Shown in pieces: positions 6,504 to 60,885 of a stretch of 64,000 nucleotides of DNA. The translations under genes and the position numbers were made by a program. Below the pieces are notes generated by a model. It was not told the DNA's origin and ran no database searches. It saw nothing but the letters and a program-made list of their open reading frames with translations. How positions within the stretch are numbered: position 1 is the first letter of the stretch; each line of letters starts with the position of its first letter. Location of the stretch: contig SVJA01000001.1 of NCBI GenBank assembly GCA_015069195.1, forward strand, positions 78,148-142,147. The letters are read 5' to 3'. This stretch comes from Oscillospiraceae bacterium (GTDB lineage Bacteria > Bacillota > Clostridia > UBA1212).

Positions 6504-7400
6504 TTAAGCTATAGCAGATGTAAATACCTTTTCTGCATGGACAACCAATCGTCCGTTATCGTAATCATATTTATGACAAGTAGAAAGTGTAAGTATAACA
6601 TCGTCACTCGTCAGCTCAGTATCAGCCGCATACATAGAACTTTTCTGCAAGCCTTTTATAAATTCTAAATAGTTGTCATCATTTACAAAACCTGTCTGAA
6701 TGTAGTAGTTATCTGTCGTAGTTTCGTATACGGAAAAAATCTTCCATGCAGTAACTTCTGTGTCTGTATATGTGTAAATCATACGGTGTTTGTCATAGTA
6801 GGACTTTGTCGAATATTTTTTCAAAGTGCCGAACATTGTACCGTTCTGCATATTGTGACCGTAAACGATATTGTTTCCGTACGACATATCAGGCATATTT
6901 CTGTAATCCAGGAATACCGTGCCGGAAAGATTGGTCTTTCCGTTTATGTTTTTTCTCAGGTAATATTCATTATCTGCAGCCTGAACGACGGGGTAACTTA
7001 TACTTGTACCGTCAATATACAGCCAGAAAACAAAATCGCCGTATGTTTCCGAAAGACTTTTTATACTGTCAATAGACGATAAAACGGGATAGGTAAAACG
7101 CTGCTCACCGGAATCGTTCTCGGTGTCCTCGATAGGATACTTCGGAACTTCTCTGCCGGTATCATCTGTAGTTTTGTCATCGGACGGTTTGAACTCAATA
7201 CCAAACTCATCAACAATGGATTGGTTAAGCTCAATATCCTCTATATATCCGGAGGCATAATTGCTGAGAACTGCAAGTGAACAAAACATAATAACGAATG
7301 CCACAGCTCGCACAAGCGAATTGAAGTCCGGAAGATTATTCTTTTTTTTGCGTGAAATCTTCTTGGTTTGCTTCACAGGTAATTCCGGGCGTTTTTGCAT
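6504..7400 (-). CDS. srtB: Class B sortase
   Basis: A 298-residue membrane-anchored transpeptidase that links surface proteins to the cell wall. A basic cytoplasmic start (KKISRKKKN) is followed by one membrane segment (about residues 30-50) and an extracellular sortase domain. The catalytic His is in YGHNM, the catalytic Cys in LSTC, and the Arg follows in GRLVVHA. The spacing and the extra helices between strands fit class B rather than class A. AGGAGGT precedes the ATG. No substrate with a recognisable NPxTG-type sorting signal is present in the window. It lies just upstream of the dnaD-like gene with a 13-base gap and may be co-transcribed with it. Confidence 0.92.
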   Translation of the reverse strand: MQKRPELPVKQTKKISRKKKNNLPDFNSLVRAVAFVIMFCSLAVLSNYASGYIEDIELNQSIVDEFGIEFKPSDDKTTDDTGREVPKYPIEDTENDSGEQRFTYPVLSSIDSIKSLSETYGDFVFWLYIDGTSISYPVVQAADNEYYLRKNINGKTNLSGTVFLDYRNMPDMSYGNNIVYGHNMQNGTMFGTLKKYSTKSYYDKHRMIYTYTDTEVTAWKIFSVYETTTDNYYIQTGFVNDDNYLEFIKGLQKSSMYAADTELTSDDVILTLSTCHKYDYDNGRLVVHAEKVFTSAIA

Positions 7401-7464
7401 ACCCTCAACCTCCTAAAAACAATAAGTCAATCTATTTTACAACAGTATACCCTTGGCGGTCAAT

Positions 7465-7533
7465 TAAATTTCCTACTAAAGATGCTGAAATTTGCCCGAT
7501 ATCAAATTATCAGCATCTTTAGTAGGAAATTTA
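7465..7533. repeat. Long hairpin with conserved CCCGATAT loop (copy 1)
   Basis: Perfect 24-base arms (7465-7488 and 7510-7533) flank an inner 6-bp stem (AATTTG 7489-7494 with CAAATT 7503-7508), an 8-base loop CCCGATAT (7495-7502) and a single bulged base (7509). The same architecture recurs at 60726-60795 with different stem sequence. On the minus strand it lies in three degenerate tandem units of about 71 bases (roughly 7637 down to 7465) sharing CTTATAAATTTCCT and ATATCG. It sits between the lipoprotein terminator and the sortase gene. Function unknown. Confidence 0.8.
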
Positions 7534-7558
7534 TAAGAAGTTTATGGAATTTGGTAGA

Positions 7559-7580
7559 AAATCGACTCGATATTCGATTT
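7559..7580. repeat. Degenerate short copy of the CCCGATAY hairpin
   Basis: A 7-bp stem (AAATCGA 7559-7565 with TCGATTT 7574-7580) carries an 8-base loop CTCGATAT, one base different from copy 1. It belongs to the neighbouring tandem unit of the same array. The whole stretch 7401-7747 has no gene; besides these hairpins and one terminator nothing else was recognised. Confidence 0.55.
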
Positions 7581-7644
7581 ATCGCAACATCGGCAGGAAA
7601 TTTATAAGAAATGTCAGATAATTGGTATAAATTTGCCCAAAATC

Positions 7645-37206: not shown

Positions 37207-37382
37207 TTTCCCCTGTCAACACAATAAGAACCGCGCCAAATTTTCTTTGGACACGGCCAATCCACTTTCCATTGTGTATAAGAAATCAGCTGCTGCAAAA
37301 TCCTTTTTAGCGAAGCCAAACCGCTTTTCCTTGGTGTATAAAAGTTCAAACGTTTCAAAATCCTTTTTAGCGAAGCTAAACC
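37203..37382. repeat. Three 60-bp tandem repeats downstream of glnA
   Basis: Reading the minus strand, units at 37382-37323 and 37322-37263 are 60 bases each and share GGTTTxGCTTCGCTAAAAAGG and the TTATACACxAxGGAAA end; a third, more diverged unit covers 37262-37203. Each of the first two holds a small TTAGC/GCTAA hairpin. The array lies between glnA and the SanA-like gene. Confidence 0.75.
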
Positions 37383-37410
37383 AGGATTTTGAAACGTTTG
37401 ACTTTTATAC
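37336..37410. terminator. 28-bp near-perfect hairpin overlapping the glnA stop
   Basis: Left arm 37336-37364 and right arm 37383-37410 pair throughout except for one extra base; the loop holds a smaller hairpin. The right arm includes the glnA stop codon (37405-37407). It likely forms the glnA 3' end, and its left arm is part of the first tandem repeat. Confidence 0.65.
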
Positions 37411-39495
37411 TCTGAACAACATATCTCCATAAGTCGGAAGCGGCCAATATTCGGATGCCGTTATAGTTTCCATTCGATCAACCTTATCTCGCAAATCATT
37501 CATTGCAGGAATTACATCGTCGTGGTATGCCTCTGCCTGCAAAATGTGATCTTTCATAGCAGCAGCATTTGACACGGTGTTTCTGAGAACCTTTACAGCC
37601 TTGTATGCGGCATTATTGAGCTCTGAAAGTTCGGTAATCAAATCTTCTTCCATAAAGCAACTTGCATCCGGTACAACAGCTTGTTTTGCGGCAGCAGAGC
37701 CGGCCACATCGGCGATATACGCCGATACTGCCGGTATGATGTCACGGCTAGCCATTTCTATCATAGTAAGCGCTTCGATGTTTATAATCTTTGAATAATT
37801 TTCAAACAAAATATCTGTTCTGGAATTTATCTCTACACTGCTCATTACATTGAACATTTTGAAAAGATCAATATTTTTCTGCATAGGGAATACCTTATAC
37901 GCATCAACAGCGGTTTTGAGATTGCAAAGACCTCTCTTTTCTGCCTCCGCTTCCCATTCCTTGGAATAGCCGTTTCCGGAGAATATAACTCTTCTGTGGT
38001 TCGTGAAAGTTTCTTTCAATATCTGTGCAACGGCAATATCAAAGTTCTCGGCATTTTCAAGTATATCCGCAAACTCTTTGAACTCTTTTGCAATAGCCGT
38101 GTTCAAAACAATGTTCGGCAATGCAATATTCTGCGACGAGCCAACCATACGGAACTCAAACTTGTTTCCTGTAAATGCAAACGGTGATGTACGGTTTCTG
38201 TCCGTTGTATCTTTTCTGAATGTCGGAACGGTGGGAATACCCAAATCCATTACAGAAGCCTTAACGCTTGTATAAGTCTTTCCGTTTACGATGGCATCGA
38301 TTATCTCTTCAAGTTCCTCACCTACAAATACTGAAGTGATAGCCGGGGGAGCTTCGCCAGCGCCGAGACGGTGGTCATTTCCGGCGTGAGCAACGGATAT
38401 TCGCATAAGTTCCTGATATTCGTCAACAGCCTTGATTATACCTGCAAGTATCAAAAGGAATTGAATGTTCTCGGCAGGAGTTTTTCCCGGATCAAGAAGA
38501 TTCTTTCCGGTGTCTGTCGCAAGCGACCAGTTATTGTGTTTGCCGGAGCCGTTTACACCCTTGTAAGGCTTTTCATGAAGCAAGCAAACAAGACCATGTT
38601 TTTCGGCAGTTTTCTTCATGTATTCCATAATCAAAAGGTTCTGGTCAACTGCCATATTTGTTGTAGCGTATATCGGAGCAAGTTCGTGCTGTGCAGGTGC
38701 TGCTTCATTATGCTTTGTTTTTGAATTTATGCCGAGCTTCCAAAGGTTTTCATCTAGTTCTGCCATGTATGCGGAAATTCTCGAATTGAGCGGACCGAAG
38801 TAATGATCCTCGAGTTCCTGGCCTTTCGGAGCCGGAGCGCCGAAAAGAGTTCTTCCCGAATACATGAGATCTTTTCTCAAATCGTAAATTTCTTTATCGA
38901 CAATAAAATATTCCTGCTCAGCGCCGACCGTCGGTGTAACTCTTTGAGTCAATGAATCACCGAAAAGTCTTACGATACGAAGAGACTGATTGCTGATGGC
39001 CTCCATAGAACGAAGGAGCGGAGTCTTAGCATCAAGAGCCTCTCCGGTGTATGAACAAAATGCTGTAGGAATATAAAGCGTACCGTCTTTTACAAAAGCA
39101 TACGAAGAAGAGTCCCATGTCGTGTAACCTCTCGCCTCAAAAGTAGCACGAATTCCTCCTGACGGAAAAGATGAAGCATCAGACTCGCCTCTTATAAGCT
39201 CCTTTCCGGAAAACTCCATAACAACTTTACAATCACCTACCGGAGATATAAAAGCATCGTGTTTTTCTGCAGTAACACCTGTGAGCGGCTGGAACCAATG
39301 AGTATAGTGTGTAGCACCTTTTGCTATAGCCCAGTCCTTCATCGCATTTGCGACAACATCTGCGATTTTCGAGTCAATCGGCTTACCCTGCTCGATAGTC
39401 TTGACCATAGATTTATAAACATCTTTAGGAAGACGTTCTCTCATAACATCTTCATTAAAAACCATACATCCGAATATTTCAGAAATACTGCTCAT
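37405..39495 (-). CDS. glnN: Type III glutamine synthetase
   Basis: A 696-residue enzyme of the GSIII family, making glutamine from glutamate, ammonia and ATP. The length and the N-terminal EIFGCMVFNEDVMRERL are typical; catalytic segments include ATHYTHWFQPLTGVTAEKHD, the glutamate-binding NEAAPAQHELAPIY, HEKPYKGVNGSGKHNNWS and FEFRMVGSSQN. It forms a dodecamer in known relatives. GGAGGA precedes the ATG. It is the only glutamine synthetase in the window. The 3' end is covered by a large hairpin. Confidence 0.97.
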   Translation of the reverse strand: MSSISEIFGCMVFNEDVMRERLPKDVYKSMVKTIEQGKPIDSKIADVVANAMKDWAIAKGATHYTHWFQPLTGVTAEKHDAFISPVGDCKVVMEFSGKELIRGESDASSFPSGGIRATFEARGYTTWDSSSYAFVKDGTLYIPTAFCSYTGEALDAKTPLLRSMEAISNQSLRIVRLFGDSLTQRVTPTVGAEQEYFIVDKEIYDLRKDLMYSGRTLFGAPAPKGQELEDHYFGPLNSRISAYMAELDENLWKLGINSKTKHNEAAPAQHELAPIYATTNMAVDQNLLIMEYMKKTAEKHGLVCLLHEKPYKGVNGSGKHNNWSLATDTGKNLLDPGKTPAENIQFLLILAGIIKAVDEYQELMRISVAHAGNDHRLGAGEAPPAITSVFVGEELEEIIDAIVNGKTYTSVKASVMDLGIPTVPTFRKDTTDRNRTSPFAFTGNKFEFRMVGSSQNIALPNIVLNTAIAKEFKEFADILENAENFDIAVAQILKETFTNHRRVIFSGNGYSKEWEAEAEKRGLCNLKTAVDAYKVFPMQKNIDLFKMFNVMSSVEINSRTDILFENYSKIINIEALTMIEMASRDIIPAVSAYIADVAGSAAAKQAVVPDASCFMEEDLITELSELNNAAYKAVKVLRNTVSNAAAMKDHILQAEAYHDDVIPAMNDLRDKVDRMETITASEYWPLPTYGDMLFRV

Positions 39496-60357: not shown

Positions 60358-60607
60358 CTTTCTCCCCTGTTTCTTTCTTTTTCTTATTCTTTACCGCAAG
60401 CTTGTATATCGACGTGAACATATTGTACACACCGCAGACGGCACCGAGCACAATCGCTCCGACAACAACCTTTTCGGACCAACCGAAATACTTTACACAA
60501 AGCTTTGCTCCTATGAGCAACAAAGCAAGCGGCGAAAGAACCGAAATACCGGCTTCCGTAACGGCAATGACAGCCTTTGCAATTTCTCTTCTGTCTTTAT
60601 TTGCCAT
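60350..60607 (-). CDS. atpZ: AtpZ-type ATP synthase accessory protein
   Basis: An 85-residue protein with two membrane segments and a basic C-terminus (KNKKKKETGE). It matches small AtpZ/AtpI-family proteins encoded first in Bacillota and sodium-type atp operons. GGGCGGTG precedes the ATG. First gene of the operon. Confidence 0.8.
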   Translation of the reverse strand: MANKDRREIAKAVIAVTEAGISVLSPLALLLIGAKLCVKYFGWSEKVVVGAIVLGAVCGVYNMFTSIYKLAVKNKKKKETGEKDV

Positions 60608-60725
60608 AAGGAAAACACCGCCCTCAAAGAAACTCTTTGTATGTTAAAATCAATGTAAAAAAGATCAAAACAATCCATTTTCACATACACGCTAAAGTTA
60701 ACAACTTTTTGGCTGATTTGTCAAT

Positions 60726-60795
60726 AAAAATCGAACTACGAAAACTTCAAAAATCGCCCGATACCGATTTGTTGAAGTTTTGTAGTTCGATTTTT
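60726..60795. repeat. Long hairpin with conserved CCCGATAC loop (copy 2)
   Basis: Arms of 24-25 bases (60726-60750 and 60772-60795), inner 6-bp stem (AAATCG 60751-60756 with CGATTT 60765-60770), 8-base loop CCCGATAC (60757-60764) and one bulged base (60771). This is the same plan as 7465-7533, and stem bases differ between copies while pairing is kept. A partial second copy of its right half follows about 56 bases later. Confidence 0.8.
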
Positions 60796-60823
60796 TCGAT
60801 ATAGTGGTAACGCCCTATATCGA
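60796..60823. repeat. Partial copy of the CCCGATAY element as a small hairpin
   Basis: TCGATATAG (60796-60804) pairs with CTATATCGA (60815-60823). The right part (CGCCCTATATCGATTTATTGAA from 60811) aligns with the right half of copy 2 (from 60755). The remainder of 60608-60885 holds no gene. Confidence 0.6.
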
Positions 60824-60885
60824 TTTATTGAAATTTTTCGACTTGATTTTTTTAGAGATTATAATCAATTAAAAACATCAGTATG

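Follow-up and report, generated by a model that had tools for sequence, protein, structure and literature searches.

Dispersed long-stem hairpins with conserved tips and locus-specific arms, probable intrinsic terminators or insulators, in a genus of Clostridia

Dispersed terminator-like repeats are already known and can usually be recognised by the sequence of the whole element. Of the kinds described so far, the pneumococcal SPRITE comes closest to the hairpins analysed here; this dispersed, terminator-like repeat lies near gene ends and is described as hardly occurring outside S. pneumoniae and S. mitis (PMC3049150). As in that description, the present hairpins are dispersed, AT-rich repeats of about 30 copies with a stem exceeding that of ordinary terminators and AAAA/TTTT ends; they are located near gene 3' ends, are limited to one species group, and have no established target-site duplication. 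Dispersed long terminator-like stems at gene 3' ends were indeed found. However, the account considered (PMC3049150) gives SPRITE one whole-element sequence profile, while conservation in the present families is limited to the tip, each locus having arms of its own; sequence and host differ as well, and right-half companion arrays are not reported for SPRITE there. The BOX element of pneumococcus (boxA-boxBn-boxC), as outlined in that source (PMC3049150), is likewise a genus-level dispersed hairpin repeat with a variable-number module, but its terminal modules are conserved and a target-site duplication is present, whereas here the repeated module comprises the core and the right arm, with no conserved end sequence. 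REP/BIME sequences of the GTAG and CGTC superfamilies (PMC3733652) are also extragenic imperfect palindromes, often near gene ends, whose stems differ among families; these stems are 5–13 bp long compared to about 30 bp here, where the constant part is the tip, and neither a GTAG nor a CGTC tag was shared in the aligned hairpin ends. With ordinary intrinsic (Rho-independent) terminators, the present hairpins share a stem-loop at the stop codon, directly downstream of the gene, and flanking A and T runs, but not the stem of about 30 bp or the 8-base loop conserved across unlinked loci.

The window, the whole stretch of 64,000 nucleotides analysed, contains two hairpins of the first family, H1 and H2, whose parts were read from the sequence:

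7465–7488, + strand: left arm (24 nt) of hairpin H1, family 1
7489–7508, + strand: conserved core of H1, with inner stem AATTTG (7489–7494)/CAAATT (7503–7508) and loop CCCGATAT (7495–7502)
7509–7533, + strand: bulged A (7509), then the right arm of H1 (7510–7533)
60726–60750, + strand: left arm of hairpin H2, family 1
60751–60770, + strand: conserved core of H2, with inner stem AAATCG (60751–60756)/CGATTT (60765–60770) and loop CCCGATAC (60757–60764)
60771–60795, + strand: bulged G (60771), then the right arm of H2

The architecture that an earlier note had described as common to 7465–7533 and 60726–60795 is real in both position and anatomy. The arms of H1 (7465–7488/7510–7533) pair perfectly, and the left arm of H2 has one further unpaired base, absent from that note. 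Two details given there hold for both window copies and only partly for the family: many copies, though not all, have the single bulged base on the 3' side, others having none or two, and the inner stem, 6 bp in the window, ranges over 6 or 7 bp family-wide. A covariance model (R3) constructed from 15 other copies, neither window copy included, matched H1 at E 3.5e-9 and H2 at E 2.2e-8 (64 kb searched). Since this model, built without them, recovers both, the two hairpins are beyond chance. No Rfam family scored above its gathering threshold in the window, and the only matches were sub-threshold hairpin look-alikes, in agreement with the note, whose author knew of no family with this loop.

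An initial pattern search of the genome from which the window comes (2.0 Mb, 23 contigs; hereafter the window genome) revealed more copies of the core AAATCGCCCGATAYCGATTT; the 20-base core pattern, with up to two mismatches allowed, occurs there at five sites, and a reversed-pattern control gave none. With successive covariance models, in searches that scored 150 first-look candidates per genome, at least 14 intact family-1 copies were found in the window genome and at least three in the sister species, represented by isolate RGIG4242, a bin labelled Clostridia from a roe deer colon metagenome (69% complete) and the only other genome of the genus examined. Among the matches listed, no strong one came from 29 other genomes of the order, belonging to 11 further genera. 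The family data thus cover one genus and two genomes, at least one of them a metagenome bin, with anchor alignments that were partly hand-made. The genome does hold further copies, the lack of which the note had named as grounds for abandoning its proposal, and the covariance-model check it had suggested yielded many of them in the window genome and its relative, all intact ones being intergenic, with compensatory changes and the loop kept. Several candidates for a wider distribution were discarded: contig pattern matches had paired arms or belonged to known arrays only in RGIG4242, the rest being unpaired; two viral pattern matches were not hairpins; and weak covariance-model matches in other genera (E about 1–6) were ordinary terminators without the loop. 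A scattered motif of the DNA-uptake type was also rejected, as the half motif CGATAYCN{0,1}RATTT, where it is not part of a known copy, falls almost solely in coding sequence; this search revealed one further degraded intergenic hairpin, on contig C10.

Seven full hairpins align without gaps, with both sides altered in 24 of 28 pairs. Paired cells make up 83% of this alignment versus 58% in shuffles, and the observed covariation score was reached by none of 500 shuffles in any copy set, so the claim that pairing is kept despite base changes is well founded. In 15 copies, the loop is mostly CCCGATAT, with CTCGATAT, CCCGAAAC, GTCGATAT, and others as variants; within the inner stem, the A/T half does not vary and the remainder changes in pairs, and the arms pair over about 30 bp despite sharing little or no sequence. 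The rho hairpins, which are orthologous between the two species, differ by compensated changes (AAATCG/CGATTT versus AAATTGG/CCAATTT). Sequence constraint or common ancestry would keep the tip and the A/T inner stem as they are. In these hairpins, the arms are unrecognisable and the tip alone identifies the family; ordinary repeat finders would therefore miss such repeats. Ordinary terminators with a loop likeness arising by chance would account for the terminator-like position and A/T runs, but this explanation is highly improbable given leave-out E-values between 1e-9 and 1e-8 for the window copies and five core-pattern matches, with 0–1 mismatch, in 2 Mb against none for the reversed control.

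A weak match at 37341–37406 led to a second family, whose core, AATCCT-GGTTTAGCTNCGCTAAAA-AGGATT, with the tip GGTTTAGCTNCGCTAAA, is unrelated to that of family 1 and is set in the same architecture:

37341–37406, − strand: family-2 hairpin with core AATCCT-GGTTTAGCTTCGCTAAAA-AGGATT; its left arm overlaps the stop codon of the glutamine synthetase III gene
37306–37322, − strand: core belonging to the right-half companion of this hairpin, 60 nt downstream

The glutamine synthetase III gene spans 37405–39495, and its last codon and stop codon lie inside the left arm of the hairpin. Since the left arm includes a coding end, the right arm must be the follower at this site. The family-2 core has 17 matches in the window genome and five in the sister species, compared to zero and two, respectively, for the reversed pattern; no copies were found elsewhere in the order among the genomes searched, which makes this family genus-restricted. 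Its hairpins have locus-specific perfect arms, right-half companions at about 60 nt and a location at the stop codon, and all copies examined have the same sense as the preceding gene. In both species, a family-2 hairpin follows rodA, in which the core and the outer base are kept and the middle arms are wholly different yet paired; one species has the stop codon TAA pairing with TTA, where its relative has TGA pairing with TCA. On contig C2 of the window genome, two tandem paralogous genes each end in a near-identical family-2 hairpin (80206 and 81841; loci L167 and L169), and their sequences are alike up to the companion core and different beyond it, as if the duplication had ended in the core.

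The positions of the copies fall mainly into two classes. Eight family-1 copies sit 3' of a gene in the gene's own sense; the stop codon is at −5 to +26 nt from the start of the left arm in seven of them, and the eighth, at mutS, is located behind a family-2 hairpin. When both families are pooled, the stop codon ends within this interval in 18 of 20 sense-oriented hairpins. Seven other family-1 sites, including H1 and H2, are upstream of an opposite-strand gene, and there the divergent promoter usually has its −35 box directly at the left end of the hairpin. The corresponding features in the window are:

7434–7463, − strand: promoter-like site TTGACC-N18-TAAAAT of the sortase gene, −35 box at 7463
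6504–7400, − strand: sortase gene downstream of this site (Pfam PF04203, E 2.5e-19)
60719–60724, − strand: TTGACA, −35-like, 1 nt from H2 (by eye from the sequence)

H1 starts 2 nt upstream of the sortase-gene −35 box, and the TTGACA at 60724–60719 precedes a gene starting at 60607 which, by gene order and sizes, looks like the first gene of a putative ATP synthase (atp) operon. At sortase, atp, rho, and rnz, the hairpin begins 1–3 nt upstream of the −35 box (assigned partly by eye), and at trpB the putative −35 box overlaps the arm; a second hairpin of the rnz region in the window genome fits neither class neatly. A-runs precede the stem and T-runs follow it in most copies. The promoter-like site of the sortase gene is also present in the sister species, there without a hairpin, and the orthologous loci of spoIID, HAD/sbcD, and the zapA-side lipoprotein lack the hairpin too, canonical GC-rich terminators replacing the hairpin after spoIID and the lipoprotein gene. 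The rho and rnz hairpins are common to both species. Four orthologous sister loci without the hairpin, together with rho and rnz with it, support dispersal.

We consider it probable (roughly 0.6) that the hairpins are dispersed, genus-restricted, long-stem bidirectional intrinsic terminators or insulators. Termination itself is proposed from position and structure. At about half of the sites, a stop codon abuts the left arm, and the hairpin would end the mRNA of the gene concerned; at the other half, both window copies among them, a hairpin placed against the −35 box would keep transcripts out of the promoter, whether these read through from the upstream gene or are divergent. Selection for termination would keep the arms paired and leave them otherwise free to change, and similarity would be lost through matched substitutions. 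The terminator role fits because of the stop-codon position, the A/T runs, the ordinary terminators at the same genes of the sister species, and the paired change of the arms, and the insulator role fits because of the placement just upstream of promoters. One could speculate that a long stem would help where the terminating ribosome covers the lower arm. A simple terminator scan reported none in either window region, although T-runs of 3–7 are visible, partly in the stem; the rule used wants a GC-bearing stem and T residues outside it, whereas here the T-run lies partly in the paired arm. Two unrelated tips on one architecture, at stop codons and −35 boxes, suggest a general route by which a compact genome acquires and keeps intergenic punctuation.

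A plain terminator has no need of a conserved 8-base loop, and the terminator model leaves the constancy of the tip, the best-conserved feature, unexplained. Ordinary terminators without a conserved loop were the other adverse outcome foreseen in the note, and the copies do look terminator-like by position, yet the loop is kept. Given this constancy, a factor binding the tip or a mechanism of spread acting on DNA is conceivable. The former would be central to a regulatory RNA in 3'-UTRs or leaders, in which an RNA-binding protein or a partner RNA would recognise the tip, CCCGAUAY or, in family 2, GGUUUAGCUNCGCUAAA, and through it a regulon would be coordinated. Conservation of the loop and inner stem with random arms, and the occurrence of every family-2 copy in the sense of the gene it follows, agree with such a function, which we nevertheless regard as improbable, since family-1 copies occur in both orientations, so that in many transcripts the tip would be present as its complement, and neither a shared gene function nor a partner was identified. 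The scarcity of G.T pairs in the hairpin stems (about 1%) is compatible also with a palindrome acting at the DNA level. On the loop strand, the non-standard pairs near promoters comprise one G.T and nine A.C, and those after stop codons six of each, a directional lean that is not significant (Fisher p 0.06). An A.C on the loop strand is a G.U on the other strand, so the near-promoter non-standard pairs would mostly be G.U in transcripts arriving from the upstream gene (1 versus 9).

Nine loci carry one or two right-half copies, always 3' of an intact hairpin; each companion consists of the core, the right arm, and a tail, without the left arm, at a loop spacing of 54–78 nt from its neighbour. 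Those of the window hairpins are:

7559–7608, + strand: H1 companion, core AAATCGA-CTCGATAT-TCGATTT and a right arm like that of H1, no left arm (R3 match at 7557, E 0.0018)
60813–60856, + strand: H2 companion, loop CCCTATAT and right arm, no left arm

The right arms of the companions resemble those of their neighbours (z 3.9–11.5 for 10 of 11), and the left sides are generally unlike, one z of 3.7 including core sequence; in the window, right-arm similarity has z 7.7 for H1 and 4.5 for H2, and left z is 0.9 and −2.0. For family 2, it is clear at 37341 only (z 4.7; others 0–1.5). Companions lack self-pairing. The partial copies that the note had called degenerate do exist, at loop distances of 71 and 56, but they are not generally degenerate, the core and right arm being kept. 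Companions may have arisen by tandem duplication of the core and right arm. BLAST similarity between unlinked loci spans the intact copy and its companion (e.g., 62% over 178 bp), and the array may be an old unit, as judged from these alignments; repeated local duplication of the core and right arm is equally possible. One-sided companions, together with a change of stop codon mirrored by the right arm, offer a concrete handle on the upkeep of long perfect pairing.

The fixed polarity of these tandem right-half copies at all nine loci, as if cut between the left arm and loop, could also be expected of a non-autonomous mobile DNA element (MITE, REP, or SPRITE-like), with any terminator activity incidental, whose tip a trans-acting enzyme recognises in a single-stranded or cruciform hairpin before moving or duplicating it. 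The differing presence of hairpins between the two species, the copy numbers of at least 14 versus at least three, and the near absence of G.T pairs point the same way. We consider this possible, although unlikely: no near-identical recent copy pair, target-site duplication, or matching transposase was seen, and copies at the orthologous sites of rho, rnz, and rodA have maintained their arms after long divergence. Sites without the hairpin exist in the sister species, at a divergence too high to define duplications. No associated Y1/RAYT gene was identified; the two Y1 transposase matches in the window genome are degenerate, IS200-like and accompanied by hairpins of their own, and the sister genome has none. 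A RAYT/REP mechanism was set aside as unlikely, as these Y1 genes and their flanking sequence look like IS200 remnants. From the suggestion of the note that the hairpin is an RNA structure or a mobile element, the first part stands, most probably in the sense of a terminator, and mobility is unsupported by an enzyme, target-site duplications, or recent identical copies.

A doubtful elaboration of the terminator reading would make these hairpins "tip-coded" terminators, with unrelated cores, two of which were seen, atop long stems. Their arms, particular to each locus, would be renewed by fold-back copying or selection to suit the coding end that they overlap, while a dedicated factor would read the tip and each locus would leave right-half copies trailing 3'. 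Insertion of the core into loops of pre-existing terminators was discarded, because the sister-species terminators at these genes have arms unrelated to those of the hairpins and, in the rodA pair, the arms have diverged in place around a retained core.

Several other sequences were noticed. The degenerate IS200-like Y1 remnants, with their own hairpins, lie at C18:79000–79800 (L149) and on C7 (L150) of the window genome, and one is just downstream of rnz, near a hairpin array. Downstream of the hairpins at L111 (2840–2912) and L032, there are very short reading frames, e.g., MSDYELVMVFLTVIGLILKDKQKK, resembling type I toxins of the TxpA/BsrG type (Hol_Tox), accompanied by an antisense small-RNA-like sequence (GGTTATGCTCCT..., with promoter and terminator). 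The small-RNA-like part also adjoins hairpins at rho in both species and at HAD/sbcD (L036). The palindrome TTTCCCGGGAAA, perhaps an operator, recurs with small variants intergenically at L032, L089, L036, L113, and L111. An intergenic repeat of about 110 bp with 75–77% identity is common to unlinked loci of both species (L113 in the sister species versus L020 and L131 in the window genome).
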